Source: Janthinobacterium sp. TB1-E2 (GTDB lineage: Bacteria; Pseudomonadota; Gammaproteobacteria; Burkholderiales; Burkholderiaceae_D). Taken from it: DNA of 64,000 bases. This document shows, piece by piece, positions 30,378 to 47,750 of the stretch. The position numbers and the translations under genes were made by a program. Within the stretch, counting starts at the first letter, position 1. The number at the start of each line of letters is the position of its first letter. The stretch lies in NCBI RefSeq assembly GCF_036885605.1, contig NZ_CP142523.1:3968001-4032000 (forward strand). The letters run 5' to 3'. The notes beneath the pieces are model-generated. The model was not told where the DNA came from. It saw only the letters and a program-made list of their open reading frames with translations, and searched no databases.

Positions 30378-30483
30378 TTGCTTAAAAAATAATGGAGACG
30401 CTACGGATGAGGCGCTACGCCGTGGCGTGAGGGCACAGGTGTGGGCACAGTTCAAGCATGCCACGACTCCATTACGCAAAGCA

Positions 30484-30496
30484 AATGCGAACCATT
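30484..30496. promoter_or_regulatory. Degenerate Fur-like site upstream of TonB receptor
   Basis: AATGCGAACCATT has the symmetric AATG/CATT ends of the Fur core AATGATAATCATT and differs from it at three central positions. It lies 107-119 bases before the receptor start. The match is short, so this is tentative. Confidence 0.25.
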
Positions 30497-30558
30497 GTTA
30501 TTTACTTCAATTTACAAATCTCTTGCACTTGTGGTCATACAGCCTCATCCGATGGCCA

Positions 30559-31884: not shown

Positions 31885-31893
31885 CAGTGTCTC

Positions 31894-33141
31894 CTAGGCG
31901 ATGTAGCGGCGCGGATTATCGGCATTGCAGTCATCTTCGTCTTCCTTGTCCTCGCCCTTGAAGACGACGGGACCGTTGAAGGCCAGCTGCAGGTTCTCGC
32001 CCTGCCAGCTCAGCCACGGCGTCGCTTCGCTGCCCGGCTCCGACGTCTTGCCGGACGGCTCGAGGATGATGCTGTCGTTCGTGATGCGCGCCATGCCGAT
32101 CACATAGGTGTAGACGGAATCATCGTCGGCCGCCTTGGACAGGCGGAAGTCGAACGCGCACTCGACGATCTGCTCGCCATATTGCATGACCATCTTCGGC
32201 CGCATGGACGCGACCGAGACGGCGCCATTGGCCACCGCCGAATACACGCTGAAGACGAGGCCCACCGTGCCGCCGTAATGCTGCGCCAGCGCGGGGTTGA
32301 CTTCCACCGTTTCCGTGGCCGGCCCCTTGCCCGCCGCGCCCGCCACGTCGCCCAGGTGGCGCACGTAGGGCATGGCGTCGAAGCTGCCTGCCGTGTCCGG
32401 CGCCTGGATGAAGCGCATCTGGCCATTCGGCAAGAGGATGCCGACACGCAAATCGAGGTCGTCGTTATCGTCGTCGCCATCGCCGTTATCGACCCAGGTC
32501 GCCTTGACGATGAGTTTCTTCGGCGCGCCCGCGCCCTTTTCCAGCGACACCTTGTGCGTCTGGCCCGCCTTGGTCAGCGAAATTTTGGACAGGGAAATCT
32601 TGGGCGCCGGTTCCGCTACCGCCGGCGCCACTTCGCCGCCGAAATGCGCGACCAGCGCATCGAGGCCGCCATTGAAACCCTGGCCCACGGCCATGAAGCG
32701 CCAGCCGCCATCCTTGCGGTAGAACTCGCCCAGCATGACGGCTTTTTCTTGCGCAAAATCAGCGTCCGCATACGTGTATCGGGCCAATTCTCTGCCGCCG
32801 TCGAGCAGCCGCAGGTAGCCACTGCCCAGCTGCGCCATGGTGGCGTCGCCATCGATGGCGGCCGTGACGACCAGGCGCTCGATGGACGCAGGCAAACGGT
32901 CGAGCTGATAGCTGAAACCGGCCGCATCGCCGGACGGCGCCGCAGTTTCCACGCCGCCGCACGGCGTGCGCGGCTGGTTAAAGAAAGTCATGTAGCGGTC
33001 GTCGGACAGCTTGCCAGCGGCGTCGAGGCCGAAACAGGCGAAATCCAGCGTCACGCCGGCGCTGGCCAGACCCAGTTGCACAATATTGCCCGTGACGAGG
33101 CCGGACAGCGCCAGGCGCTGCCCCTTGATCAGGTTTTCCAT
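31894..33141 (-). CDS. TerA-like tellurite-resistance family protein
   Basis: A 415-residue protein with an N-terminal TerD-like domain closely similar to that of the following gene (MENLIKGQRLALSGL, SDDRYMTFFNQPRTPCGGVE, AVGQGFNGGLDALVAHFGGE). A TerA-type C-terminal domain follows from about residue 195 and contains an acidic, probably calcium-binding stretch NGDGDDDNDDLDLRVG. The open frame extends upstream, but the ATG at 33141 aligns with the paralog's start. It lies between the TerD-like and TerF-like genes, with 76 and 9 bases of spacing, so the three form an operon. TerB, TerC and TerZ are absent from the window. Confidence 0.85.
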   Translation of the reverse strand: MENLIKGQRLALSGLVTGNIVQLGLASAGVTLDFACFGLDAAGKLSDDRYMTFFNQPRTPCGGVETAAPSGDAAGFSYQLDRLPASIERLVVTAAIDGDATMAQLGSGYLRLLDGGRELARYTYADADFAQEKAVMLGEFYRKDGGWRFMAVGQGFNGGLDALVAHFGGEVAPAVAEPAPKISLSKISLTKAGQTHKVSLEKGAGAPKKLIVKATWVDNGDGDDDNDDLDLRVGILLPNGQMRFIQAPDTAGSFDAMPYVRHLGDVAGAAGKGPATETVEVNPALAQHYGGTVGLVFSVYSAVANGAVSVASMRPKMVMQYGEQIVECAFDFRLSKAADDDSVYTYVIGMARITNDSIILEPSGKTSEPGSEATPWLSWQGENLQLAFNGPVVFKGEDKEDEDDCNADNPRRYIA

Positions 33142-33217
33142 GGAGTCAGGGAGAAAGATGGGAAAGACAGAACCGGGCAGCGGTGCCACCCGGTACATTT
33201 ACGCAAACAACTGGTTG

Positions 33218-33793
33218 TTAAGCATTAATACCGAACGAGCGGGCCAGAGGGCCCAGGCCGCCTTTGAAGCCCTGGCCAATCGCCTTGAATTTCCATTCGC
33301 TGCCGGCACGGTAGACTTCACCGAAGATCATGGCCGCTTCCGTCGAGCCGTCTTCCGACAGGTCGTAGCGGGCGATTTCCGCGCCGTTGTCGCCGTTCAG
33401 GCAGCGGATGTAGGCCTTGCCGACCATGCCGAAGTTCTGCTTGCGGTTTTCCGCGTCGTGGATGGTGACGGCCACGGCGATCTTGTCGATGTCGGCAGGC
33501 ACGTTGGCCAGGTCGACGGCGATTTTCTCGTCATCGCCATCGCCGCCGCCCGTCGTGTTGTCGCCCGCGTGGACGATGGAGCCGTCGGCCGACTTCAGGT
33601 TGTTATAGAAAATGAAATCGGCATCAGAACGGGCCTTGCCATCCGTTTTCAGCAGGAAGGCGCTGCCGTCCAGGTCGAATGCGGCGCCATCGGTGGCGCG
33701 CGGGTCCCAGCCCAGGCCAATCACGATTTTCTTCAAGCCAGGAGCTTCCTTGCTCAGATTGACATTGCCGCCTTTTTGCAAACTGATCGCCAT
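33218..33793 (-). CDS. TerD/TerE family stress protein
   Basis: A 191-residue single TerD-domain protein. Diagnostic features are the start [20 protein letters not shown], the GLGWDPR and DLDGSAFLL segments, and the acidic loops [22 protein letters not shown], which bind calcium in characterised members. [17 protein letters not shown] ends the chain. The ATG at 33793 has AGAGGAAA a few bases upstream. It is the first gene of the three-gene ter-type operon and faces away from the hydrolase at 33964. TerD proteins are implicated in tellurite resistance and envelope or nucleic-acid stress; the exact activity is unresolved. Confidence 0.93.
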
Positions 33794-33963
33794 GGTGTTT
33801 CCTCTTTGTATAATTAGTGGGTTGCATTCGGTGTTTCAGGTCACGTCGCCGGTACCCTGGCTTGATGAGCCATGAGCCTACCATAAAGTGGCTGCTTGCC
33901 AGCCGCGCACTATTGAAAATAATGCCATGCAGAAAATACCATGCCGCTGCCCCAATACGCAAA

Positions 33964-34770
33964 ATGACGGATAATGCCGCTCGACAAAAATTTTCCCAAC
34001 CAAGCTTGCCCTTGAACAATACCAAGATACGGCTCGACTGCATCCCCGGCACCCTGTGCGACGAACGCCTGTGGTCGCGCCTGGCCCCAGCCCTGGGCGG
34101 CGCCTTTGATTTGCGGCACGTGCCCCTGCACGAGGCGCGCACGCGCACGCAGATGCAGGCACTGATCGCCAGCCACAGCGCCCAACAGGCCCATCTGGTG
34201 GGCTTTTCGCTGGGCGCCTATCTGGCGCTCGAATACGCGCTGGCGCACCCGCAGCGTGTCCAGTCCCTTACTTTGATCGCCAATTCCGCCAAAGGTTTGC
34301 TGCCGGCGGAAATCGAAGCGCGCCAGCGCATCGTCGCCATGCTCGAACGCAATGCCTATGCGGGCATCACGCGCCAGCGCCTGCGCGAACTGCTGCATCC
34401 CGCGCACTTACAGGACACCGGCATCACGGGCCTGATCCAGCAGATGGGTCTGGACCTGGGCAAGGACGTGCTGCTGGCGCAATTCATCACCACCATAGCC
34501 CGCCCGGACCTGATGGCGCGCTTGCCGGAACTCGATTTTCCCGTGCTGATCGTGGGTGCCGAAGACGACAAGCTCGTCAATCCCGACGACCTGCGCGCCA
34601 TGGCCGCCCGCTTGCCGCAGGCCACCCTGCACCTGCTGAAAGAGAACACCGGCCACATGATTCCGCTGGAGGCGCCGGGACCGCTGGCCGGCGCCATGCG
34701 TGCGCATCTGGAGGCAGCGGGCAATTTCAACGATAATGACGGGCATCGGGCATCGCCCCCACCACTTTGA
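33964..34770 (+). CDS. Alpha/beta-fold hydrolase
   Basis: A 268-residue alpha/beta hydrolase from the ATG at 33964; the frame is open further upstream, but that part does not look like a hydrolase N-terminus. The nucleophile elbow is GFSLGAY, the acid lies in VGAEDDKLVNPDDL, and the base in KENTGHMIPLEAP. It resembles the family of small MhpC/BioH-type esterases of unknown substrate. Its last bases come within nine bases of the folA start, so it is probably co-transcribed with dihydrofolate reductase. No functional link to folate is apparent. Confidence 0.8.
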   Translation: MTDNAARQKFSQPSLPLNNTKIRLDCIPGTLCDERLWSRLAPALGGAFDLRHVPLHEARTRTQMQALIASHSAQQAHLVGFSLGAYLALEYALAHPQRVQSLTLIANSAKGLLPAEIEARQRIVAMLERNAYAGITRQRLRELLHPAHLQDTGITGLIQQMGLDLGKDVLLAQFITTIARPDLMARLPELDFPVLIVGAEDDKLVNPDDLRAMAARLPQATLHLLKENTGHMIPLEAPGPLAGAMRAHLEAAGNFNDNDGHRASPPPL

Positions 34771-37837: not shown

Positions 37838-39307
37838 ATGCACTACCGCGCACGCTTGCGCCAGATCAAACGGCTGGGGTATCGGGCTTCTAAGATGGGC
37901 CACTCGTGCCCTCGTGATGGCTGGCATATGACGCTCAAGGTGTGGCTGGAAATCGTGCAGCAGGCGGCGGCTGGCAGTGGCGCCTTGCTGATGACGGCCT
38001 TGAAGCAGGCTCAGGTAACTGTAGCCCGGCGGCACGATGGCGAGGAGGATGGGGCGGGCATCGTCCTGTTTGCCGAGGCCAATGCCGCGCTGCTGCAAGC
38101 GCTGCCAGCACTGTGCCGCCATGCCTCCGTGATGGCCATTGCCGCCTGCGGCCAGCCCCCCAGCTGCGCGCAAAAGCGCGCCCTGCTGGCGGCTGGCGCG
38201 CTCGATGTGCTGCTGTGGCCGGCCGGTAGCATCGATGCGGGCCAGGTGCTGGCGCGCCTGCAGCGCTGGCAGGCCGTGGCGCAGCTGCTGGCGTCCGGCG
38301 CCGTGCGCCAGCAGCTGGTGGGCGAGAGCGCGGCCTGGACCGCCTTGCTGCACCAGGTGGTGGAAATGGCCGCCTTCAGCCAGGCGTCGATGCTGATCAC
38401 GGGCGAGACGGGCACGGGCAAGGATTTACTGGCGCAACTGGTCCACCGCCTCGGCAACTGCAGCGGCGACTTCACCATCCTCGACTGCACCACCCTGTCG
38501 CCGGACCTCGCTGGCAGCGAACTGTTCGGCCATGAACGGGGCGCTTTTACGGGCGCGGCGGCCGCGCGCGATGGCGCTTTCGCCCTGGCCGACGGCGGCG
38601 TGCTGTTTCTCGACGAAGTGGGCGAACTGCCGCTGCCCTTGCAGGCGCAGCTGCTGCGCGCCATCCAGGAGCGCAAATACAAGCGCGTGGGCGGCAATAC
38701 CTGGCAACCGACCCAGTTTCGCCTCGTCTGCGCCACCAACCGCGAACTGGAACATGAGGTGGCGCGCGGCGCCTTTCGCGCCGACCTGTATTACCGCATC
38801 GCCGGCTGGCGTTGCCAGACGCCACCCCTGCGCGAGCGCCAGGACGACATCCTGCCGCTGGCCCGGCATTTCCTCGCCGAGCTGGCGCAGCGCCCTCCGC
38901 CCGCGCTGGACGCGGCCGTGCGCGAATACCTGCTGCTGCGCGACTATCCGGGCAATGTGCGCGAGTTGCGCCAGACCGTCACGCGCATCTGGCACCGCCA
39001 TTGCGGCCCCGGCCCCATCACCATCGGCGCCCTGCCGCCAAACGAACAGCTGCTGGCACCGCACTGGCCTGACCAGTATTTCGAAGCGGCCGTGCGGCGG
39101 GCCCTGGCCCAGGGCTGCAAGCTGTCGCACATCACGCGTTGCGCCACCGACGTGGCCATCCGCCTGGTGCTGGCCGAGGAACACGGCAATAACCAGCGCG
39201 CGGCCGCCCGCCTGGGCGTGACCGACCGCGCCCTGCAGATACGCCGCAAGGCGGCTACCTGCGCGGAGCAAGCCGCTACTGCCGCGACACCGCCGGCTGC
39301 CTTTTGA
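37838..39307 (+). CDS. Sigma-54-dependent transcriptional activator with degenerate receiver-like domain
   Basis: An enhancer-binding protein of up to 489 residues; ATG 37928 (MTLKVWLE) is an alternative start that drops 30 residues of unlikely N-terminus. The AAA+ domain is complete: Walker A GETGTGKD near residue 189, GAFTGA at about 235-240 for contact with sigma-54, Walker B VLFLDEVGE, and the DYPGNVRELR segment. A Fis-type helix-turn-helix closes it (NNQRAAARLGVTDRALQIRR). The N-terminal region resembles a receiver (ALLAAGALDVLLWPAGS) but has no aspartate at the phosphorylation strand (AGIVLFAEAN). It converges on the eight-gene minus-strand operon with a 6-base gap. A sigma-54 promoter heads that operon, so it is the likely target. 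Confidence 0.88.
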   Translation: MHYRARLRQIKRLGYRASKMGHSCPRDGWHMTLKVWLEIVQQAAAGSGALLMTALKQAQVTVARRHDGEEDGAGIVLFAEANAALLQALPALCRHASVMAIAACGQPPSCAQKRALLAAGALDVLLWPAGSIDAGQVLARLQRWQAVAQLLASGAVRQQLVGESAAWTALLHQVVEMAAFSQASMLITGETGTGKDLLAQLVHRLGNCSGDFTILDCTTLSPDLAGSELFGHERGAFTGAAAARDGAFALADGGVLFLDEVGELPLPLQAQLLRAIQERKYKRVGGNTWQPTQFRLVCATNRELEHEVARGAFRADLYYRIAGWRCQTPPLRERQDDILPLARHFLAELAQRPPPALDAAVREYLLLRDYPGNVRELRQTVTRIWHRHCGPGPITIGALPPNEQLLAPHWPDQYFEAAVRRALAQGCKLSHITRCATDVAIRLVLAEEHGNNQRAAARLGVTDRALQIRRKAATCAEQAATAATPPAAF

Positions 39308-39313
39308 TCTGCC

Positions 39314-40042
39314 TCACGCCAGCCGCGCCAGCCGCAAAAAATTGCCGCCCGTGATCAACGCCGCATCGAGCGGCGGCAATCCCAGCAACTCGATCTTGTG
39401 CAATTCCAGTCCCGGATGCAGCCACGGACCGTCCGAGCCGAACAGGACCTTGTGCGGCCCCGCGCGGCGCACGGCCTGCTGCAGCAAGTCGAAGCGGCGC
39501 ACGCCCGAGCTGTCCGTATGGATATTCGGATGGCGCACAAGGTGGTCGATCAGCGCCAGCTGCGCCGCCCAGTCGTCGCCAAAGCTGCCCAGGTGCGGCA
39601 GGATGAAATTGACGTCGGGATACTGCTGCGCCAGCAGCTCGGCCACGGCCACCTCGCCGGCCGGGTCGTACAGCACGGGCAAGCCGAAGAAGCGCGCCGC
39701 CTCGCACAGTTCGCCACTGATGCGAGAGTCAAGCCGGTGCGCCTTGATGCCGACAAAACCGTAACGCTCGACGGCCGTGCGCACCATGTCCTGGATGCGG
39801 CCACGGTCGCGCCGCGCATGCACGAAGGCAAAACCGTAGAAACGCTGCGGATCGGACGCCACCAGGCGCGCCACGCCATGGTTGGCGATGGCGTAATCGG
39901 AGTGGAAGGCGGCGAACAGCACGCTGCGGGCGATACCGGCCGTCTGGGCGCGGCGCAAGTAGGCCTGCAGCGGCGCATCGCTGTCCCACGGCCCGCTCAA
40001 ACCGTCTCCCGGACCCGCATGGCAGTGGCAATCGATGATCAT
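39314..40042 (-). CDS. Amidohydrolase 2 family protein
   Basis: A 242-residue TIM-barrel metal hydrolase. Metal-ligand motifs are visible at the start (IIDCHCHAGPG), in FVGIKAHRL, in FILPHLGSFGDD and in KVLFGSDGPWL. It therefore belongs to the amidohydrolase-2 family, which includes decarboxylases and hydrolases of small aromatic or cyclic compounds. The family is often about 280 residues, so this is a compact member. It is the last gene of the minus-strand operon, starting 9 bases after the stop of a glycine-zipper protein gene. The substrate is unknown; its place suggests small-molecule work connected with the cluster. Confidence 0.8.
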   Translation of the reverse strand: MIIDCHCHAGPGDGLSGPWDSDAPLQAYLRRAQTAGIARSVLFAAFHSDYAIANHGVARLVASDPQRFYGFAFVHARRDRGRIQDMVRTAVERYGFVGIKAHRLDSRISGELCEAARFFGLPVLYDPAGEVAVAELLAQQYPDVNFILPHLGSFGDDWAAQLALIDHLVRHPNIHTDSSGVRRFDLLQQAVRRAGPHKVLFGSDGPWLHPGLELHKIELLGLPPLDAALITGGNFLRLARLA

Positions 40043-40051
40043 CTTGCCGCG

Positions 40052-40702
40052 CTATTGCCAGTCGCCCATGACGACGATGCGGTTGCCGCGCCGGCGCCAG
40101 CGTCCGCTTTCATCTTCCTGCTGCGGCGCAGGCGAGCGGAAGTGCGGCAATTGCTGGTGCAGGGCCCGCGTCAGCGCGCTTTCCACGGCGCGCGTGCTGC
40201 CATCGCTGTCACCGGCCAGACGCGCCGCCTGTCCCGCGATGCGCACGAAGCGGCGCGCCAGCTCCAGTTCACGGTCGGCCGGCGCCGCGTTCTCCATTTC
40301 CAGCTCCAGCGCATTGCTGGCCGCGCGCCCCAGGGCCGACCCGAGCGCCGTGCCCACACCCGGTATCGGGATCATCGAACCGAGGGCGCCGCCGACAAAG
40401 GGCAAGGCCGTCTTGGCCACGGCCTTCAAGGCGCCGCCCAGCGGCTTGGCCACCTTGGCGATGGTAGCGCCCACTTTCTTGACGCCCTTCCACACGCTCT
40501 TGAAGACATTGCCGAGAAACTGCTCCAGTTCCTCCTCGCTGGCCACTTCCAGCAACTCCATGGCCAGCTGCAGTTCTTCCTCTTCGCTGAAGACGGCCGC
40601 CGCGCGGCCCTTGCCCGGCCACTCCCGGCCGAATTCCAGCACTTCAAACGCGGCGCCGGCCCGCTGCCGGCATTGCCCGCATTCACATTCGAGTTGGTGC
40701 AT
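40052..40702 (-). CDS. Acidic/glycine-zipper protein A (paralog 1 of 3)
   Basis: A 216-residue protein of unknown function. From the N-terminus: a Cys-rich start CECGQC, an acidic-aromatic segment (FEVLEFGREW), and a leader-like helix with FSEEEE and EELEQFLG. A Lys/Gly-rich amphipathic stretch at about 70-100 and a glycine zipper at about 100-130 (VGGALGSMIPIPGVGTALG) come next. A conserved DRELELARRFVRIA helix follows, then a C-terminal GRWRRRGNRIVVMG. The same order occurs in two other proteins of this operon. ATG 40702 has GGAG 7 bases upstream, so I prefer it over 40726. It has no classical signal peptide. The zipper and cationic helix suggest a membrane-active product; that is inference. 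Confidence 0.75.
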   Translation of the reverse strand: MHQLECECGQCRQRAGAAFEVLEFGREWPGKGRAAAVFSEEEELQLAMELLEVASEEELEQFLGNVFKSVWKGVKKVGATIAKVAKPLGGALKAVAKTALPFVGGALGSMIPIPGVGTALGSALGRAASNALELEMENAAPADRELELARRFVRIAGQAARLAGDSDGSTRAVESALTRALHQQLPHFRSPAPQQEDESGRWRRRGNRIVVMGDWQ

Positions 40703-40739
40703 GATGCTCTCCTTCGCAGTCGTCAAGCTACTGTCATCG

Positions 40740-41645
40740 TCAGCCCCACATTTCGCCCAGCACGGCCATTTCCAGTTCGCGCCGCTGGTTCGTCAACACG
40801 CCGCGCCGGTGGGTAAACATGTCGCTGTGGATACCCTTTTCCAGAATGCGCCGCTGAGCGGCCGACGATAGCGGCGCCACATAGACGTCATGCGCGCTCA
40901 TGTCGATGCCCATCATCTTGCCGCACAGATGGTGCTGTTTCAGGCGCCGCCGCAAATCGTCGGTCTGGCCGCTGTAGGCGCGCCGGCCATCCTTGGTGTC
41001 AAACTCGATCACATACAGGCCCGGCCCCGTGGCGTTCGCATCGTTGACGGCCTGCGGAATCGCGCCCACCGCCTGGTAGCGCAAGGCGGCCGCGCCCGGT
41101 ACGCGGCCCAGGGTGGACGCCAGGATGGGCGGCACTTCGCCCTGCATCTGGCCGTCATCCTGGTCCGGGTTTTGATCCGCTCCTTGATCCTGCCCCTGGT
41201 CTTGGTCTTGATATTGGCCCGTATCCTGATACGGCGCCGGCTCCTGCTGGCCGCCGAACACGGGATACGGCGCCGGATAAATGGTGGGATAGATGGCGCC
41301 ATAGCCGCCCCAGCCCCGGTAGCGTGGCGGATACGGCAAGGGCGGCGGCGGATACCGGGGTGGCCGGCGCCCCTGGCCCTGGTAGCGTGGCGGCGCGGGA
41401 CGGCGCGGGCCCCGCAGCGGCGGCCTCGCACGCAGGCCGCCACCGCGCATGGCGCCGCGTCCACCGCCAGGGCGCGCACGCTCGCCTTCCCATTCGCTCT
41501 CCCATTCACCTTCCCACTCGCCCTCTTCCTCCCCCTCTTGCGACCACTCCTGCGACCACTCCTGCGACCATTCCCCCAGCCACTCCTGCTCGCCGGCCGC
41601 TCCCGCCTGTCCCCCAAAGGGCAGCATTTCAAACGCTTCGTTCAT
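40740..41645 (-). CDS. GIY-YIG nuclease-like protein with acidic Trp-rich N-terminus
   Basis: A 301-residue protein in three parts. Residues 1-55 start with FEMLPFGG and contain three EWSQ repeats and further EGEWEGEWESEW acidic-tryptophan units. Residues 55-200 are Arg/Pro/Tyr-rich, then Gln/Asp-rich and disordered. Residues 207-301 form a GIY-YIG-like nuclease domain: GLYVIEF, RAYSGQTDDLRRRLKQH with the catalytic-type Arg, the Glu of RRILEKGI and Asn in LTNQRREL. ATG 41645 has GAGGAGG upstream. Its start overlaps the end of the PLP-enzyme gene by 17 bases. The domain is clear in outline; DNase activity is not shown. Confidence 0.75.
   Translation of the reverse strand: MNEAFEMLPFGGQAGAAGEQEWLGEWSQEWSQEWSQEGEEEGEWEGEWESEWEGERARPGGGRGAMRGGGLRARPPLRGPRRPAPPRYQGQGRRPPRYPPPPLPYPPRYRGWGGYGAIYPTIYPAPYPVFGGQQEPAPYQDTGQYQDQDQGQDQGADQNPDQDDGQMQGEVPPILASTLGRVPGAAALRYQAVGAIPQAVNDANATGPGLYVIEFDTKDGRRAYSGQTDDLRRRLKQHHLCGKMMGIDMSAHDVYVAPLSSAAQRRILEKGIHSDMFTHRRGVLTNQRRELEMAVLGEMWG
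41539..41574. repeat. Three 12-bp tandem repeats within the GIY-YIG gene
   Basis: The unit TGCGACCACTCC occurs three times in a row with period 12 (the third with one change). It lies inside the reading frame and encodes the EWSQ repeats of the acidic N-terminal region, so the array could vary in length without a frameshift. Confidence 0.8.
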
Positions 41646-42657
41646 ATCGCCTCCTCGTATGATGTTCAAGCAAGTTCATCGCCTGTTCCAGTTGCCGGGG
41701 CGTCTGGTCGGCCCGCAGCAGAAAAGTCAGCGCGCCGGGACCGTCCCCCGCTTGCGCCAGCGCCAGCACGCCCGCGGCGCGCAAGGCTAGCTGCAAATGG
41801 GCGCGCCCGGGCAGGCGCTGCACGGGGAAGCTGCCGCCCCGGCAAGCGATGCCAGCCGCCGCCATCCCCGCCCGCCATTGCGCCACCCTGTCCGCCAGCC
41901 TGGCGCGCAAGGTGTCGCCATGGCGCGCGTTGAGCGCCAGCGCCCGCCGCGCCGCCGCCAGCACGGCCGCCGAAGGCGGACTGGCATGCACGCGCGTCTG
42001 GCTGTGCGCCGCGAAGCGCCGCAGCAGCTTGCGGCTGCCGGCCAGCACGGCCAGCGGCACGCCAAATCCCTTGGCCAGCGAGGCGCCGATGATCAGCGAT
42101 TCCCCATGCAAGCCATGCAGCCGCGCCGAACCGCCGCCCTGTGTACCTGCCACGCCCAGCACTTGCGTGTCGTCGAGCAGCAGATAACCGCCGCCCTGGC
42201 GCGCCAGCGTCGCATAGCCGGCCAGCGGCAAGACCTGTTCGCTGCCCAGCACATAGCCATCGGCCAGTATCAATGGACGCCGCCCTTGCCTGCCCCAGGC
42301 CGCCACCAGTTGCCGCAGCGCCGCCATCTCGCCGCTGGGAAACACTTGCTGCGGCAAGCCCAGGGCCTGCGCCCGCTCGGCGCCCCAGCGCGCGATGGCG
42401 TAACTGCCGCCATCGACAAGGATCACCAGGCGCTCGGCAGCCAGCATGCCGAACAGGTCCCAGAACAGGTGCAGGGTCGACGGCAGCACGCAGGCCGCCT
42501 CGCAGCCTTGCAGAGCCGCCAGATCCGCAGCCAGGGCCAGCGCGCCGGGCGGCTCCTGCAGCGCCGCCGGCTGGCCCAGGGTCAGGCTGCTCCACGGCGC
42601 CAGCGCGGCCGCCGGATGGCGCATGCCCAGATACAGGGCACTGGTAAAGTCGAGCAT
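41629..42657 (-). CDS. PLP-dependent aminotransferase class I/II (KBL/BioF-like) protein
   Basis: A 342-residue fold-type I PLP enzyme shorter than typical 8-amino-7-oxononanoate synthases (about 385-400). The cofactor aspartate is in YLLLDDTQVLGVAG and the Schiff-base lysine in GASLAKGFGVPLAVLAG. The oxoamine-synthase-like small domain follows. The N-terminal segment that normally binds the acyl-CoA substrate is reduced, so the reaction may differ from BioF or Kbl. It starts 20 bases after the 720-residue protein's stop and overlaps the GIY-YIG start. A PLP enzyme in this setting may supply or modify a small molecule; nothing identifies which. Confidence 0.75.
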   Translation of the reverse strand: MLDFTSALYLGMRHPAAALAPWSSLTLGQPAALQEPPGALALAADLAALQGCEAACVLPSTLHLFWDLFGMLAAERLVILVDGGSYAIARWGAERAQALGLPQQVFPSGEMAALRQLVAAWGRQGRRPLILADGYVLGSEQVLPLAGYATLARQGGGYLLLDDTQVLGVAGTQGGGSARLHGLHGESLIIGASLAKGFGVPLAVLAGSRKLLRRFAAHSQTRVHASPPSAAVLAAARRALALNARHGDTLRARLADRVAQWRAGMAAAGIACRGGSFPVQRLPGRAHLQLALRAAGVLALAQAGDGPGALTFLLRADQTPRQLEQAMNLLEHHTRRRYERSV

Positions 42658-42677
42658 GCACGCGCCCCGCTCCCGCC

Positions 42678-44840
42678 CTAGACGCTGCGCAGCTGCTGGC
42701 TCAGGCGCTGGCGCAACAACACCGAGGGCATCGTCGATTCGACCACCGGGTCGCTGCTGTCGACGGACAGGTCGACCCCGGTGGCGGCACGGTAGCCGTG
42801 GATATAGCCCTGCACTTGCGGGCGCCAGAAACGCGCCCAGTTGAACGCCTGGGTCGGCTCATAGATGTCGCTCCAGTTGCCGTAGCGCACGGAGAGGAGC
42901 AATTGCTCGCCAAAGATGGCCAGGTTACGGAAATGCATCACGCTGGTATCCGTCCAGCCCTGCAGTTTCTTCATGGCGTCAACCCTGTCCATCCACGGTT
43001 CCGGATACGCGACCATCACGCGCGTCGGTAAAAATTCACGGAATTCGGGACGCGCCAGCATCCACTGCTGCATCAGCATCTCGATGCGCGCCGTCGACGG
43101 CAAGTCGCCGAACTGGTTATGCGCGCCCTGCGACAGGATCAGGTGGATTTCTTTCAAGGCATTGAGCACGGGGAAGGCGTCGGCCTTCACGGTGGTATCG
43201 TCATCCTGCTTGTAGAACGAAGTCAGCAGGCGCAGCAAGTGGTGGAACGCTTCCAGGAATTTGGAGCGGCTATCGGCTGGCCGGAAGTGCTGCACTGCCT
43301 TGCCGTCCAGGCGCACACCGTAGTGATGGTCATACTCATAGTTCCGGCGCATCACGGTCAGCCGATGCTGTTCATCCTGCGTGTATCCCCACAGCAAATT
43401 ATTCAGCGGACGCAGCATATCGATTTCCGTGTTCGACAGGGGATCGAGATGGTTGCCCGGCGCGCGCAGGTTCTGGAAGCGTTGCGCGATGGCGTTCATG
43501 GTTTGCACCAGCATGCCCTCTTCATGCCAGTACGACCAGATCAGTTCCAGCAGGCAAGGATTGGCCAGCTTTTCCTGGATGATGCCAAAGCACAGGTCCA
43601 CTTCGCCTTCCTGGCCGCGCGGGATGCTGATGGGAATGTCGGGCAGCTTGCGGCGGATCACGGCCAGGTAGGGCAAGGTCTGGAAGCCGTCGATGTTTTC
43701 CAGGTAGTCATTGCGCAGCACGGTTTCCAGGTCACGCCCCTGGGGGATGTCGCGCCGGTCCAGGTAAGCGTTGTCTTCGGCCGGATTGAAGGCCAGCGGC
43801 TGGTTCAGCACGCCGCAATTGACCATCACGAACGCTTCCGTCGCCACTTTCAGCACGCGGTAGGAATCGGCATCGGAAAACGGCAGCGCGCGGCGCTGCT
43901 TGAGCTGCTGGAACATCTCCGTCTTTTTGACGAAGCGTTCCTGCTCGAAGCCGCGCACGCTGGCCAGGTCGCCGCAAAACAGGCTGTCCATGAAATGCAG
44001 GTAATTTGTAAACGACATCGCCTCGGTGCTGTTGCGTATCAGGGTCCACAGCGGCAAGTCTTCCGTCGGCTCCGTTTCCGTGCGCGTCAGCGACACGCCC
44101 ACATTGCCCGAAATCGGTTGCGGCTGGCGCTCTTCCGTCTCGTATTCCGCATCCAGCGCCAGCATGGCGTTCGGGCTCAGCCCTTCCGGCACGGGCAAGG
44201 CGCTGCGCAGTTCGGGCCGCTGCGACAGCATCATCTGCCCCATGAAACGATGCATGCCGGCGCGCCGCACCGGGGTGGAAAAGGAGTTCGGCGTGCCGCG
44301 CAGGGGTACCCATGGCGCGGCGGCCAGCACTTGCACCTGATCTCGCCCGTCGGCGCTTTGGTCGCCGTCAAACGAGATAGTGGCCACGGCGCGGTCGCCC
44401 ACCCTGCCGAAATGGCAGTCGCTGGGATGGCAGTCGGCCGTTTCAAACGCCAGCGTCACCTGCGGATTGAGTTGGGGCGTGAAGCACAGCACGGCGCTGC
44501 AGTCGGCCTGCACCGTCACGCACTGGGGCGGCGTGGAGGGGAAATTGCCATACACCCCCACGTAGCTGCCCGTCGCCAGGTCGGTAAACACGGTGCCGCC
44601 ACGCCCGTCCGTCCAGCGCACGCCCACCAGCATGGCGGGGTCGGGTACCCAGGTGGCGGCATTGAACAGATGGCAGTCCGCCTCGGCTCCCCGGTACAGG
44701 CTGATGGCGGCATTGACGACCATGGCCCCGCTGTCCTGCTCGTGCACGGTGACAGCGATGCTGCCGCCGTGGTGTTTCGGACCCGCCTGGCCCGCCCCCC
44801 TGTTCTTGCCACCCATATTGCTGCTCATCTTGCTGCTCAT
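42678..44840 (-). CDS. Large protein of unknown function, prealbumin-like N-terminus and helical body
   Basis: A 720-residue protein I do not recognise. It begins with a Ser/Met/Lys tail. A beta-rich region at about 25-120 (SIAVTVHEQDSGAMVVNAAIS, then GVRWTDGRGGTVFTDLATG) resembles carboxypeptidase-regulatory or Cna-B type domains. From about residue 250 the chain is mostly helical, with Trp/Tyr/His-rich segments such as LIWSYWHEEGML, LLWGYTQDEQHRL and YEYDHHYGVRL, suggesting a conserved pocket. There is no signal peptide or membrane helix. GAGGAG precedes the ATG at 44840. It sits between the metalloprotease-like and PLP-enzyme genes with 10- and 20-base gaps, firmly inside the operon. Confidence 0.8.
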   Translation of the reverse strand: MSSKMSSNMGGKNRGAGQAGPKHHGGSIAVTVHEQDSGAMVVNAAISLYRGAEADCHLFNAATWVPDPAMLVGVRWTDGRGGTVFTDLATGSYVGVYGNFPSTPPQCVTVQADCSAVLCFTPQLNPQVTLAFETADCHPSDCHFGRVGDRAVATISFDGDQSADGRDQVQVLAAAPWVPLRGTPNSFSTPVRRAGMHRFMGQMMLSQRPELRSALPVPEGLSPNAMLALDAEYETEERQPQPISGNVGVSLTRTETEPTEDLPLWTLIRNSTEAMSFTNYLHFMDSLFCGDLASVRGFEQERFVKKTEMFQQLKQRRALPFSDADSYRVLKVATEAFVMVNCGVLNQPLAFNPAEDNAYLDRRDIPQGRDLETVLRNDYLENIDGFQTLPYLAVIRRKLPDIPISIPRGQEGEVDLCFGIIQEKLANPCLLELIWSYWHEEGMLVQTMNAIAQRFQNLRAPGNHLDPLSNTEIDMLRPLNNLLWGYTQDEQHRLTVMRRNYEYDHHYGVRLDGKAVQHFRPADSRSKFLEAFHHLLRLLTSFYKQDDDTTVKADAFPVLNALKEIHLILSQGAHNQFGDLPSTARIEMLMQQWMLARPEFREFLPTRVMVAYPEPWMDRVDAMKKLQGWTDTSVMHFRNLAIFGEQLLLSVRYGNWSDIYEPTQAFNWARFWRPQVQGYIHGYRAATGVDLSVDSSDPVVESTMPSVLLRQRLSQQLRSV

Positions 44841-44850
44841 GTCATTCTCC

Positions 44851-46206
44851 TCAATGGATAATCAAACGGGATGCCAGGGGCGGCAGCGGCCTGCCGGACT
44901 GGCGGCCATGCCGCACGACATCGGCGCACAGCTCCGACGTGTCCAGGGTGCTGCGCAGGGCCCAGTGGGTCAGCAAACGCCCCAGCAGCTCGCTTTCGTC
45001 TTCCGGGCTCAAGGTGCCGCTGGCGCGCGCCTGGCCCAGCACGGCGAAGACCAGGGTCGGCGCGGCTTGGTACATCTGCGCCGGCGCCAGGGTCCAGCTG
45101 CGCAACAGCTGCGCCAGCATGGCCGGTTGGCGCGTGCGCACGGCCATGGCTTCGGCCAGCGAGCCGCCGCGCAAGGCCGGCGGCCGGTGCTGCACCAGCA
45201 AGCCCACGAGGGCCGCCATGCTGGCCTGCAACTGTTCCAGCAGCCGCTGCCGGGCCGGCGGCAGACCAGCCAGCGGGTAGTACGACAGCCACAGCTGCTC
45301 CAGGCGGTCCCACTGCGGATGCGGATACAGGGCCCGCCCCATGGCGCAGCTCAGGCGTACCCGCAGCCATGGCACCGGGTGCGGATCGTCGATATTGAGG
45401 CGGAAGACAAACACGCGCGGCAGGCTGACCACGCCGATCAGGCCCAGGGTGGCGGCCACGCCGACCCGCGCCAGCGACCAGAAATCGGCCACGATCTCGG
45501 AAATCCACCGTTCCCACAGCTGCCACACGTGCACGGCACCGCTGCCGCCGTGCTGCATGGCTTGCAGCACGGGCCGCAAGGACGCCACCAGGTCCAGCAG
45601 CGCCGCGCCCTGGTGGCCTACCTCGTGCACGAGCGACGAGGCGATGCTGCTGCCGATCATGCGTTCGCGCGGCAGGCGGATGATGGCGACGGGATTGTCG
45701 CCGCCACCCGGCAGGCGCGTGCGTGCGCGGCGGATGGCCGCGCCCGGCCCCCGGTCCAGGTAGCAGATCACGGGCGGCGCCTGGTACACATTGCCGGGCA
45801 GCGCCAGCGCGTCGGCGGCAACGATGTCGAGGCCGGCCAGCCACACACCCGTCTTGTGCTCGCTGCGCTGCGTGATGACTTCGTTGAACAGGTCGAACTG
45901 GGTCAGCGCGGCATTGAATTTCAGGCGCAGGAAGGTGAAGCGGCGCTGTGCCTCGGCGGCCGTGGCCATGCTGGCGCCGTCGGCGTGCTCGCGCCGCAGC
46001 CACCACTGAAACTGGGCCACCATGCGCCGCAAGGCGCGCCGGCCCTGCACCAGCTGGCTTTCGATGGCCGACTGGGCGCTGGGCATCAGGGCGGCCGCCA
46101 GCACCGTCGGCTCGATCAGCGCGAACGGTTCCAGCCGCGCCAGCCGCGTCAGCAGCGAGCGCGCCTCCTGCGCCAGCATCCAGGCTGCGTAAGCGCCGAT
46201 GGCCAT
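44851..46206 (-). CDS. Metalloprotease-like protein with HEVGH motif
   Basis: A 451-residue protein with a zinc-protease signature: HEVGH at residues 194-198 in SLVHEVGHQGA. A possible third ligand, Glu237 in SEIVAD, lies 39 residues later, the HExxH...ExxxD layout of gluzincins. It has no signal peptide. Hydrophobic stretches near 1-20 and 245-265 could touch membrane. The family is unknown to me beyond the motif. The ATG at 46206 is 4 bases after the stop of the preceding zipper-protein gene and lacks a ribosome site, so translation is probably coupled. Processing of the co-encoded zipper proteins is an attractive but unproved role. Confidence 0.75.
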   Translation of the reverse strand: MAIGAYAAWMLAQEARSLLTRLARLEPFALIEPTVLAAALMPSAQSAIESQLVQGRRALRRMVAQFQWWLRREHADGASMATAAEAQRRFTFLRLKFNAALTQFDLFNEVITQRSEHKTGVWLAGLDIVAADALALPGNVYQAPPVICYLDRGPGAAIRRARTRLPGGGDNPVAIIRLPRERMIGSSIASSLVHEVGHQGAALLDLVASLRPVLQAMQHGGSGAVHVWQLWERWISEIVADFWSLARVGVAATLGLIGVVSLPRVFVFRLNIDDPHPVPWLRVRLSCAMGRALYPHPQWDRLEQLWLSYYPLAGLPPARQRLLEQLQASMAALVGLLVQHRPPALRGGSLAEAMAVRTRQPAMLAQLLRSWTLAPAQMYQAAPTLVFAVLGQARASGTLSPEDESELLGRLLTHWALRSTLDTSELCADVVRHGRQSGRPLPPLASRLIIH

Positions 46207-46210
46207 GATG

Positions 46211-46945
46211 TCAGACGCCGTACAGGACGATTTTGTGGCCCTGGCGCGCCCAGCGCCCGCTGGCCGGGCGCATGCCGCCCTGGCCCTGGCCGCGTCCGCC
46301 CCCCTGCGTCATGCCGCCGCCCGCACCGGCGCCGCTGCCGCCCTGCGTGGCCACCTGGCTGCCGGGGCGTCCCAGCAGGCCGGGCGCGAACTGGCGCGCC
46401 GCCGCGCTGGCGGCCGCCTGGGCGATGGCGCGCGGGTCGCCCGCACCGCGTGCCTGCGCGGCGCGGTTGACGGTGTCGGCGGCCAGGCGCACGAACTGCT
46501 TGGCGCCCTCGAATTCGCGGTCTTCATTCGACGACGCTTCCGCTTCCAGCCCCAGCGCGTTGCCGGCGGCCGAAGCGAGGCCGCTGCCGATCTTGGCCCC
46601 CAGCGGGCCGCCGAAATAACCGCCGATGGCGCCGCCGGCCAGGGGGATGGCTTTTTTCGCTACGCCCTTGAGCACGCCGCCGATCGCTTGTCCCACGGGC
46701 GACTTGATGATGCCGCCCGCCACCGAGGCGGCCTTGCGCAGGAAATTGCCGAGAAACTGTTCCAGTTCCGCTTCATTGCTGACTGACAGCAGTTCATTCG
46801 CCAGTTCCATCTCCTCGGTCTCGGAAAACATGGCGTTCGCGCCCCCCTCGCCGCTCCACTCGCCCTGGCCAAACTCGAACTGTTCCGCTTCAAAGCCGGA
46901 CATCTCCTGCCCGTATTCCAGGGTCGTACGATCTAAGTCATGCAT
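46211..46945 (-). CDS. Acidic/glycine-zipper protein B (paralog 2 of 3)
   Basis: A 244-residue paralog of proteins A and C of this operon. Order of elements: acidic-aromatic start (FEAEQFEFGQGEW), leader-like helix FSETEEMELANELL with ELEQFLGNFL, a cationic stretch with IIKSPVGQ and LKGVAKKAI, and a glycine zipper at about 95-125 (GGAIGGYFGGPLGAKIG). The EDREFEGAKQFVRLA helix follows, then a Gly/Gln-rich linker near 195-225 and the C-terminal GRWARQGHKIVLYG. TAGGAG precedes the ATG at 46945. Homologs are remembered only as hypothetical proteins. It has no classical signal peptide. The Gly-rich linker is absent from paralogs A and C. Confidence 0.75.
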   Translation of the reverse strand: MHDLDRTTLEYGQEMSGFEAEQFEFGQGEWSGEGGANAMFSETEEMELANELLSVSNEAELEQFLGNFLRKAASVAGGIIKSPVGQAIGGVLKGVAKKAIPLAGGAIGGYFGGPLGAKIGSGLASAAGNALGLEAEASSNEDREFEGAKQFVRLAADTVNRAAQARGAGDPRAIAQAAASAAARQFAPGLLGRPGSQVATQGGSGAGAGGGMTQGGGRGQGQGGMRPASGRWARQGHKIVLYGV

Positions 46946-46972
46946 GATGAGCTCCTAAAAGTTAGCACCTTG

Positions 46973-47008
46973 GTTGACACCTCAGTTGACACCTCAGTTG
47001 ACACTACA
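46973..47008. repeat. Three 12-bp direct repeats between two zipper-protein genes
   Basis: GTTGACACCTCA occurs at 46973 and 46985 and, with three changes at its end, at 46997. The array fills the 86-base gap between zipper genes C and B, 28 bases or more before the B start codon. No sigma-54 element lies here. It may be a protein-binding array or a replication-slippage product. Confidence 0.7.
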
Positions 47009-47031
47009 GCGCCGGACAGATGGCCGTCCGG

Positions 47032-47598
47032 TTAACAATCGAGCACGACGATGTGCCCGCCCTCGCGGCGCCAGCGGCCACCGTCCGGCCCCGGCGTTTG
47101 CGCCGCCTGCCTGAGCAAGCCTGGCGCCACGCTGCGTGCCACTTGCAGCAAGGCCGTTTCGACCCTCGCCCTGGGCGTGCGCGCGTCCGTGCCGCCGTCC
47201 TGCGCCAGCGCCGTATTGACGGCATCGATCAGGTGCACGACCTGGCGCGCCAGTTCGAATTCCTTGTCTTCCGGGCTCAATCCTTCCAGTTCCATGCCGA
47301 AGATGCCGGCCGCGCGCCGCTTGAGCGCCTGCGGCGAACCGCCATGCAGGGGCAGCAGGGGCGCCACCACCTTGCCCAGCAACTGGCGCAGCGGCCCTTC
47401 GAACGGCGTGCCGCGCACTTGCTGCCCCGCCGCCGTGGCGCCCAGCTGGCGCGCCAAAAAGCCATCGAACTGGGCCGGCGCCTGCAATTCCAGCAACTGC
47501 GCCGCCAGTGCCAGTTCATCTTCCTGCTGCAAAGGCAGCATGCCCGGCGCTTCAGGCAATTCCATTTCGGGACGATAGGCGAGCAGACGGCTGGTCAT
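47032..47598 (-). CDS. Acidic/glycine-zipper protein C (paralog 3 of 3, divergent)
   Basis: A 188-residue, most diverged member of the zipper family and the first gene of the operon. ATG 47598 has GGAG 8 bases upstream; the frame stays open further but would run through the promoter. The leader-like part QQEDELALAAQLLEL and FDGFLARQLG aligns with the ELL..ELEQFLG of A and B. The Gly-rich zipper is reduced to PFEGPLRQLLGKVVAPLLPLHGG (spread over residues 67-90). PEDKEFELARQVVHLI and the C-terminal GGRWRREGGHIVVLDC keep the family ends, but the final residue is Cys instead of the aliphatic end. It may be a regulatory or partner variant. Confidence 0.7.
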   Translation of the reverse strand: MTSRLLAYRPEMELPEAPGMLPLQQEDELALAAQLLELQAPAQFDGFLARQLGATAAGQQVRGTPFEGPLRQLLGKVVAPLLPLHGGSPQALKRRAAGIFGMELEGLSPEDKEFELARQVVHLIDAVNTALAQDGGTDARTPRARVETALLQVARSVAPGLLRQAAQTPGPDGGRWRREGGHIVVLDC

Positions 47599-47646
47599 GG
47601 CAGGCTCCGGCAACAAGGGAAGGCACGCGGCCCATGCCCTGTTATC

Positions 47647-47661
47647 GCAAGGGCCGTGCCA
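47647..47661 (-). promoter_or_regulatory. Sigma-54 (-24/-12) promoter of the eight-gene operon
   Basis: On the minus strand the sequence is TGGCACG-GCCC-TTGC, an exact match to the sigma-54 core, with ten bases between the GG and GC pairs. The predicted transcription start is near 47635, giving a 5' leader of about 37 bases before zipper gene C. Confidence 0.85.
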
Positions 47662-47688
47662 GCAAGGACAAGGGAGAGGAGCGGGTAG

Positions 47689-47708
47689 CGGCGAACGGCG
47701 TTTCGCCG
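47689..47708. promoter_or_regulatory. Candidate activator site 1 (UAS)
   Basis: CGGCGAA (47689-47695) and its complement TTCGCCG (47702-47708) form a dyad about 63 bases upstream of the predicted sigma-54 start. The related second copy is 42 bases further upstream. Enhancer-binding proteins usually bind such paired dyads. Confidence 0.6.
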
Positions 47709-47730
47709 ATAGCGTAAAAACCATGGTTTC

Positions 47731-47750
47731 CGGCGAAGCTGTTTTCGCTC
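47731..47750. promoter_or_regulatory. Candidate activator site 2 (UAS)
   Basis: CGGCGAA-N5-TTTCGC repeats the layout of site 1 with the same spacing, although the right half is less perfect. The 42-base centre-to-centre distance equals four helical turns, so both sites face the same side of the DNA, about 105 bases from the predicted start. Confidence 0.55.

Follow-up and report, generated by a model that had tools for sequence, protein, structure and literature searches.

Introduction

Type VI and Xanthomonas-type IV secretion effectors include varied wall hydrolases, nucleases and peptidoglycan-binding domains without Sec signals, while phage lysis cassettes and lysis-released bacteriocins place a glycine-rich protein beside wall hydrolases, none with Sec-like signals. 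In the STAND/CHAT/EAD conflict systems, varied effectors are joined through shared adaptor regions (PMC8195603). We investigated a locus that shares these features in part, a block of eight genes with its own sigma-54 activator, in a 64,000-nucleotide stretch of Janthinobacterium sp. TB1-E2 (GCF_036885605.1, NZ_CP142523.1, forward-strand positions 3,968,001 to 4,032,000; hereafter the window, with position 1 as its first letter). In contrast to the secretion effectors, no injection parts or immunity genes were recognized in the window's operon. In contrast to phage lysis cassettes, it has several extra conserved genes and a sigma-54-type promoter, and its glycine-zipper proteins have a hydropathy that is low for a holin. 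In contrast to the conflict systems, no CHAT or STAND-type match was found among the window's genes, and the only AAA+ protein is the sigma-54 activator. The block is kept in the same order in many unrelated soil and water bacteria and encodes three conserved protein families that the consulted libraries do not recognize, together with a changing set of enzymes that cut cell wall, DNA and protein and lack ordinary export signals, so it may be an undescribed way to release lytic proteins. A search of the open-licence PMC literature, which did not extend to subscription papers or preprints, listed no paper whose title or abstract opening describes it, and no description was seen in PMC5979394, PMC12419801 or PMC8195603.

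Organization of the operon and its promoter

We first examined the gene arrangement. The first-pass annotation had noted eight closely spaced minus-strand genes behind a consensus-perfect sigma-54 promoter, with an activator gene converging on their far end, and this observation was confirmed. The features are as follows.

47647..47661, minus strand: -24/-12 (sigma-54-type) promoter, TGGCACG-N4-TTGC, 11 of 11 scored letters
47032..47598, minus strand: zip1, glycine-zipper protein, 188 aa (E 1.4e-38 with the zipper profile in its own genome)
46211..46945, minus strand: zip2, glycine-zipper protein, 244 aa, with an MHDLDR start, an acidic-aromatic N-terminal part and a C-terminal GRWxRxGxxIVL motif (E 3.7e-94)
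44851..46206, minus strand: MPR, a 451-aa HEVGH protein, predicted mostly helical
42678..44840, minus strand: P720, with two Ig/CnaB-like N-terminal domains (about residues 26-236) and a conserved helical part
41629..42657, minus strand: PLP enzyme of the alpha-oxoamine synthase (BioF/KBL) fold family
40740..41645, minus strand: cargo protein with the start MNEAFEMLPF, an acidic-aromatic repeat, an R/P-rich linker and a C-terminal GIY-YIG domain (Pfam score just below its cut-off)
40052..40699, minus strand: zip3, glycine-zipper protein, 216 aa, with an MHQLECECGQC start (E 4.9e-71)
39314..40042, minus strand: AMI, Amidohydro_2 hydrolase, 242 aa
37928..39307, plus strand, convergent: EBP, sigma-54 activator with GAFTGA, a Fis-type HTH (weak Pfam match) and a receiver-like N-domain without a conserved phospho-acceptor Asp
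37851..47690, no strand: cassette missing as one piece in two sister genomes, approximate ends

All eight genes are open. With the preferred start codons, the gaps are 86 bases (zip1-zip2), 4 (zip2-MPR), 10 (MPR-P720), 20 (P720-PLP), an overlap of 17 (PLP-GIY), 40 (GIY-zip3) and 9 (zip3-AMI), and 6 bases separate the stops of AMI and the activator. The activator ORF opens at 37838, but its likely start is 37928. The promoter TGGCACGGCCCTTGC lies at 47661-47647 on the minus strand, with its -12 GC 50 bases before the zip1 ATG at 47598. Exact matches to the consensus pattern occur nine times in the 6.3-Mb genome, against three for the pattern read backwards, and conservation shows that the site is not chance: a site matching at least 10 of 11 letters precedes 57 of 79 related operons, but none of 302 control genes, 0 of 79 reversed upstreams and 0 of 79 shuffled upstreams. 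GAFTGA is present in 44 of 46 long relatives of the activator, and no kinase gene was seen beside it in the window. The locus thus has both the -24/-12 promoter and the AAA+ activator of a sigma-54-dependent operon; regulation by RpoN or this activator is not shown and needs expression data. A search of the genome with the zipper profile found only the three copies in the operon.

Conservation and distribution of the cassette

The first-pass annotation had named the absence of conserved linkage in other genomes as one of two outcomes that would overturn its reading of these genes as one system, and had proposed a search for co-occurrence of the zipper, HEVGH, 720-residue and PLP proteins. We scanned for relatives of MPR and found 255 stretches encoding them, of which 80 were kept. 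Of 85 loci analyzed, 69 have enough contig; P720 is in 69 of these, the PLP enzyme in 66, AMI in 62 and a convergent activator in 63 (in locus L084 the opposite-strand activator lies upstream). All of the 61 loci that have MPR, P720, PLP and AMI keep that order, also in distant hosts, and linkage is therefore conserved. In a 398-genome phylum sample, the four strong zipper hits are the four MPR genomes, while six further weak hits (E 8.5e-6 to 6.0e-4) cover 36-76 positions, mostly the glycine-rich stretch.

The MPR tree mixes proteobacterial classes, although it shows no mixing at phylum level. Within Janthinobacterium the cassette is patchy (26 of 40), and empty sites exist: it lies at a fixed chromosomal site whose flanks were matched in five sister genomes that lack it. 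The flanking decarboxylase family recurs in 25 of 85 loci. To examine a viral origin, we scanned viral contigs, which gave 29 pattern matches, none a relative, and 50,697 phage records, in which none was found; only MPR was used as query. Homologues in phages, as expected of a phage lysis module, were thus not found for MPR, and zipper hits in PHROGs are weak and partial (best E 2e-4, to an endolysin). PADLOC models, which we used to look for a known defence system, gave only weak partial matches in the GIY-YIG region (E 0.001 to 0.027). Distant MPR relatives, however, sit beside CHAT and AAA/TPR (STAND-like) genes.

Proteins of the conserved core

The fixed core consists of the zipper proteins, MPR, P720, the PLP enzyme, AMI and the activator. 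The zipper, MPR and P720 families have no convincing match in Pfam, NCBIfam, PHROGs, PADLOC or PDB sequences; the first-pass annotation had recognized the zipper proteins and the 720-residue protein only as hypothetical proteins. For the zippers, the PDB search gave seven weak matches (best E 0.022), several to designed helical proteins. In MPR, H194, E195, H198, E237 and D241 are invariant in 50 aligned rows, so that it has the HExxH of zincin metallopeptidases with downstream invariant E and D, although the ligand role of E237 or D241 is inferred. Whether MPR has the zincin fold is left undecided by its model (pLDDT 83.4), for which Foldseek found no match to a solved structure better than E 0.4, and no PDB sequence match was found either. 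P720 has no PDB sequence match; its N-terminal part is Ig/CnaB-like, while its helical part was modeled too poorly to judge the fold.

The PLP enzyme has the fold of alpha-oxoamine synthases such as BioF, KBL and CqsA (1bs0, E 4e-32), and the PLP lysine K196 and D162 are invariant in 24 rows. It is far below the NCBIfam equivalog cut-off for BioF (64.1 against 426.45 bits), and its product is unknown. AMI passes the Pfam cut-off for Amidohydro_2 (62.1 against 26.4 bits). Because the PLP enzyme and AMI are so widely retained and have invariant catalytic-type residues, and because P720 has an invariant E502-x-x-H505 and a nearly invariant E530-x-x-H533, we considered a small-molecule or modified-peptide pathway, with the zippers as precursors, the PLP enzyme, AMI and P720 as tailoring enzymes and MPR as the maturation protease. 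This reading is unlikely, the least favored of those considered, because the window's zippers are 188-244 aa with no recognized leader, no transporter is encoded, and large lytic cargo would be unexplained.

Variable cargo and export signals

We next examined the variable slot. In relatives it holds Glucosaminidase + DUF2272 + PG_binding_1, Amidase_2, Peptidase_M74, VanY, Peptidase_M23, OmpA + PG_binding_1, Trypsin_2, and Amidase_2 joined to a sub-threshold GIY-YIG; 17 of 20 proteins scanned had a match, some weak. The window's GIY-YIG domain scores 20.2 bits against the Pfam cut-off of 22.6. Among 28 GIY-YIG copies, picked by their GIY and YxG motifs, the signature Arg and Glu follow in 27, the exception being that of locus L081. 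The zipper domain is also embedded in larger cargo proteins of about 310-790 aa, in four loci (L034, L036, L047 and L049) in one chain with GIY-YIG. The N-terminal motif [FY][ED]x(2,3)[PE][FLYM], which was chosen after seeing the data, occurs in 55 of 130 downstream non-core proteins (zippers included), against 3 of 653 flanking and 0 of 168 core proteins.

The first-pass annotation had described small secreted-looking proteins, which was not supported. A crude signal-peptide rule fired on 0 of 199 zipper-domain proteins, 0 of 76 cargo and 0 of 223 core proteins, against 101 of 653 flanking genes; Tat signals were not tested. We then looked for known secretion machines in 20 sampled hosts. The T6SS sheath marker VipB is in 11 of 20, the window's own genome among them; the T2SS L marker is in 11 of 20, and the VirB10-like TrbI family is in 12 of 20 but was not found in the window's own genome. 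Three hosts show none of these markers. The expectations that every host has a T6SS or a VirB10-type machine, or that the cargo are Sec-signal-bearing T2SS substrates, were therefore not borne out, so a shared known exporter is unlikely and the route is unexplained. As to an immunity gene beside each effector, the window's eight genes are otherwise assigned, but small ORFs in relatives were not searched exhaustively, which leaves this point without an answer for the family. The zippers have no stretch that passes the usual hydropathy limit for a membrane span (best 19-residue means 0.85, 1.10 and 1.40, limit 1.6), which speaks against simple membrane insertion; MPR does have one hydrophobic stretch near residues 242-272.

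Cargo without Sec signals could act inside the producer. Programmed self-lysis or suicide was also considered, in which the zippers act like a holin and the wall hydrolases, nuclease and protease destroy the producer after induction (altruistic release or anti-phage defence). The absence of Sec-like signals by the crude rule, the lack of a recognized immunity gene, the occurrence of zipper, wall amidase and nuclease domains in one operon and in part in one protein, and the CHAT and STAND-like neighbors of distant MPR relatives favor this reading. However, the weak PADLOC matches, the absence of MPR from phage records and viral contigs, the fixed chromosomal site in Janthinobacterium and the low zipper hydropathy speak against it, and conserved metabolic enzymes are not needed for suicide. 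We regard it as unlikely, though the strongest of the alternatives. Less likely still is extracellular digestion or scavenging, in which exoenzymes would be released under nutrient limitation to feed on dead or living bacterial cells. The scanned cargo is largely wall hydrolases, wall-binding domains and proteases, an M20 peptidase (in 12 of 85 loci by clustering) and AMI could process products, and sigma-54 has been linked to the bacterial exterior (PMC3162934), but exoenzymes usually carry Sec signals, and MPR and P720 are unexplained. Self wall remodeling in a dormant or cyst-like stage, with the zippers as a structural layer, is similarly doubtful: peptidoglycan-binding and OmpA domains occur in cargo, the zippers are conserved and structural-looking, and some hosts are methanotrophs, some of which form cysts, whereas cargo varies between genera, the cassette is patchy within Janthinobacterium, and GIY-YIG domains do not fit.

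A model for the cassette

Taking these results together, we favor, with a probability of roughly 0.4, a transferable, sigma-54-switched cassette that makes and releases lytic effector enzymes without the Sec pathway. In this view, an unknown cue would act on the orphan activator, which opens the -24/-12 promoter; the acidic-aromatic glycine-zipper proteins would form a membrane-active or condensate-like carrier; cargo enzymes would be gathered through the same kind of acidic-aromatic N-terminus, followed in many by a cationic Pro-rich linker; MPR, as a zincin-like protease, and P720 would mature or assemble carrier and cargo; and released cargo would attack cell wall, DNA or protein of other bacteria, while the PLP enzyme, AMI and, in some relatives, an M20 peptidase would make or process a small molecule used with it. 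The linkage, the promoter, the composition of the cassette and the variability of its cargo rest on direct analysis. The activation step is supported by sequence conservation only, and the later steps, including function, target and export route, are inference, for which no experiment exists. No immunity gene, transporter or secretion part was recognized in the window's operon, and the metabolic enzymes do not obviously fit this model, whereas the conserved gene order and promoter, the GAFTGA activator, the exchangeable lytic slot, the zipper domains embedded in larger cargo, the shared N-terminal motif, the lack of Sec-like signals in cargo, the retained GIY-YIG Arg and Glu, the loss of the cassette as a unit and the class-mixed tree agree with it.

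The interpretation in the first-pass annotation, that the genes form one inducible system suited to antagonism or an intercellular role, was partly supported. The genes form one sigma-54-type unit, with linkage, order, promoter and convergent activator conserved across proteobacterial classes, and a link to antagonism is plausible because the variable slot in relatives holds peptidoglycan hydrolases, GIY-YIG domains and trypsin-like proteases, although antagonism itself is not shown and no delivery machine was seen in the operon. A further possibility, which we consider unlikely but not excluded, is that MPR, P720 and the glycine-zipper proteins form a self-contained protein release or delivery apparatus, distinct from the numbered secretion systems, that recognizes an acidic-aromatic N-terminal tag and carries exchangeable lytic cargo, and that the whole has spread horizontally among several proteobacterial classes.

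The gene set combines three protein families unrecognized in the consulted libraries, one of them with a confident model that has no solved counterpart, with a tight promoter prediction and an exchangeable lytic slot. The cassette is small, deletable and naturally absent from sister species, so it can be tested directly. If it exports or releases cargo, it would be a new route for proteins without signal peptides; if it is suicide, it would be a new lysis programme.

Organization of the operon

The cassette comprises the following features.

Window 37.8-47.7 kb, minus strand: eight genes, zip1, zip2, MPR (encoding an HEVGH protein), P720, PLP, GIY, zip3 and AMI
Window 37.8-47.7 kb, plus strand: a sigma-54 activator gene (EBP), whose stop lies 6 bases from that of AMI
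47661-47647: a perfect -24/-12 element, 50 bases before the zip1 start

The genome is a single contig of 6.3 Mb, and its closest named relatives are Janthinobacterium. Pfam recognized the EBP, AMI (Amidohydro_2, 62.1 bits), PLP (Aminotran_1_2) and, below its cut-off, GIY-YIG, while it gave nothing for MPR, P720, zip1, and zip2 and one chance-level match for zip3. Similarly, NCBIfam gave nothing for MPR, P720, zip1, zip2, and GIY and a weak match for zip3. Sequence searches of the PDB found no relative of P720 or MPR and only weak matches for the zippers (best E 0.022). TerD-like genes, a family recognized by eye and not searched, lie near the cassette at window positions 30000-34000, beyond the folA-like and decarboxylase genes.

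Conservation of gene linkage and promoter

The first-pass annotation had named conserved linkage in other genomes as one of the points on which its proposal of one system depended, and we next examined gene neighborhoods in relatives. P720 relatives were found in four Ensifer, Rhizobium, and Paraburkholderia records, and in the three that were retrieved most of the other genes lay beside them. A scan of genome contigs with an MPR alignment matched 399 stretches, of which 255 encode a relative, and the best 80 were kept. We analyzed 85 loci (individual loci are given L numbers), namely the window, L013, L014, L015, L017, and these 80; L016 was left out because its contig is short. By profile searches of six-frame ORFs, 69 of the 85 were found to have at least 9.9 kb beyond MPR. 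Of these 69, all have a zipper and P720, 66 have PLP, 62 have AMI, and 63 have an EBP on the opposite strand downstream, while in L084 it lies upstream. The set was chosen by MPR and 12 of the 69 (window included) are Janthinobacterium, so this is not independent sampling. AMI is missing in L014, L017, L029, L051, L067, L080, and L087, PLP in L015, L017, and L087, and the downstream EBP in L044, L053, L059, L067, L080, and L084, although in some of these the contig may end too soon. The order MPR, P720, PLP, AMI is kept in 61 of the 61 loci that have all four, and the AMI and EBP stops lie within 600 bases in 52 of 58.

We then scored the upstream regions for a -24/-12 element. Of the 85 loci, 79 could be scored, since five show no zipper upstream on the contig and one has too little upstream sequence. 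While 57 of 79 match at least 10 of 11 letters and 23 match all, the best of 302 control genes, 79 reversed upstreams, and 79 shuffled upstreams reach 9. Without the 12 scored Janthinobacterium loci, the count is 48 of 67. Loci without a good site exist: L052, L067, L084, L090, L093, and L095 score 6 or less or have none, L015, L017, and L073 score 8, and 13 score 9. GAFTGA is kept in 44 of 46 long EBP relatives, and their receiver-like N-domain shows no conserved phospho-acceptor Asp in the consensus and rows inspected.

Distribution and loss

MPR is present in 26 of 40 genomes of the genus and in 4 of 398 genomes of a phylum sample, and P720 is present in 14 of 145 of a family sample and in 3 of 185 of a class sample; these counts include the window's own genome. 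The MPR tree mixes classes, as Microvirga falls in a starred group with Variovorax, Methylocapsa in a starred group with Methylococcaceae, and Nitrosomonas in one with Methylococcaceae. At phylum level, however, it shows no mixing (5 changes, the least possible), and such counts prove no transfer, so horizontal spread is our reading of the tree. Members outside the Pseudomonadota are metagenome bins, and their host labels are therefore unsure. In two sister genomes (L102 and L103), the flanks lie next to each other without the cassette, at about 37,851-37,888 and 47,673-47,690. In two more (L101 and L104), a 151-bp piece matching zip1 (window 47201-47351) remains at the otherwise empty site, which points to loss by deletion of the cassette. 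A fifth (L105) also lacks it, with less exact ends.

Features of the core proteins

The zippers share an acidic-aromatic start, a motif like ELAxELLxVxxExELxxFLG, a glycine-zipper stretch, and a C-terminal GRWxRxGxxIVL motif. Of 199 proteins with the domain, some are two zippers in one chain, and others are large cargo proteins with the domain inside. In L029, L034, L036, L038, L040, L047, L049, L062, L070, L078, and L087, two zippers are fused into one protein of 384-447 aa just upstream of MPR. The hydropathy of the zippers stays below the usual limit for a membrane span. MPR has invariant HExxH, E237, and D241 and 67% mean column identity in 50 rows. Although its predicted model is confident (pLDDT 83.4, pTM 0.81) and mostly helical, no PDB chain matched it better than E 0.4; one hydrophobic stretch lies near residues 242-272. 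P720 has two Ig/CnaB-like domains in front (best match 4iyk, E 1e-5), followed by a conserved helical part of low model confidence, and the front is variable and may be missing in some loci. PLP is closest in the PDB to BioF (4e-32) but lies far below the BioF equivalog cut-off.

The variable slot and possible export routes

Between PLP and AMI, relatives carry GIY-YIG proteins or enzymes acting on the cell wall. We scanned 20 of 83 listed downstream proteins, a list that left out the window, L018-L028, short zippers, and proteins under 100 aa. Glucosaminidase, DUF2272, Amidase_2, Peptidase_M74, VanY, Peptidase_M23, NLPC_P60 (barely), PG_binding_1, OmpA, and Trypsin_2 or Trypsin were above the Pfam cut-offs, GIY-YIG, HNH, and SLT were below cut-off, and three of the 20 had no match. 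Amidase_2 and GIY-YIG were both seen by Pfam in L071, and three further members of the same cluster (L067, L089, and L093) also carry the GIY pattern. A short N-terminal motif occurs in 55 of 130 downstream non-core proteins (zippers included), 3 of 653 flanking proteins, and 0 of 168 core proteins. Because the motif was chosen after the sequences had been read and many rows are related, this is a lead and not a test. A crude Sec rule fired on 0 of 76 cargo, 0 of 199 zipper, and 0 of 223 core proteins and on 101 of 653 flanking genes. In 21 tagged cargo proteins, residues 1-40 are acidic (about -4 per 20) and residues 40-100 are cationic and Pro-rich. For the motif, the Sec rule, and these residues alike, gene starts came from our own gene calling and some are wrong, which makes these counts approximate.

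We next searched 20 host genomes for markers of known secretion systems and found VipB in 11, T2SSL in 11, and TrbI/VirB10 in 12. The hosts of L068 (a metagenome bin), L072 (Nitrosomonas sp. Nm166), and L093 (Microvirga aerilata) show none of the three, although the last two are draft isolates, so absence is likely but not certain. The window's own genome has VipB and T2SSL.

Distant versions and interpretation

A distant version of the cassette was found on a plasmid of Paraburkholderia sp. PGU19 (L113, 9496-19459), where two E-rich proteins, a remote MPR (78.9 bits), three unknown proteins, an M20 peptidase, and AMI (377 bits) stand beside a convergent LuxR-type gene in place of the EBP; no P720 or PLP match was found there. 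For the same plasmid, PLSDB lists a 102-bp GIM-2 beta-lactamase at 100% identity (L113, 1549-1650), which is far shorter than a whole gene and is probably a fragment or an artefact of the prediction. Still more remote MPR-like proteins (44 and 21 bits; tblastn from L113, E 3e-23 and 1e-10), themselves annotated as hypothetical, lie on Bradyrhizobium and Sinorhizobium plasmids (L114, 9743-11164; L115, 9743-11131) next to genes annotated as CHAT, patatin, phospholipase D, C25 peptidase, or ATP-binding protein. The last has weak AAA and TPR matches, and we call it STAND-like. This neighborhood favors a conflict or lysis setting, but the evidence is weak.

Taking these results together, the existence and unity of the system are close to certain, whereas its function is inferred. 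The core families are unknown and the gene set is unmatched, with the literature search covering open-licence papers only; this does not claim that a new mechanism is shown. Among the possible functions, we place a lytic effector cassette aimed at other cells first and self-lysis second, with scavenging, wall remodelling, and a small-molecule pathway behind.
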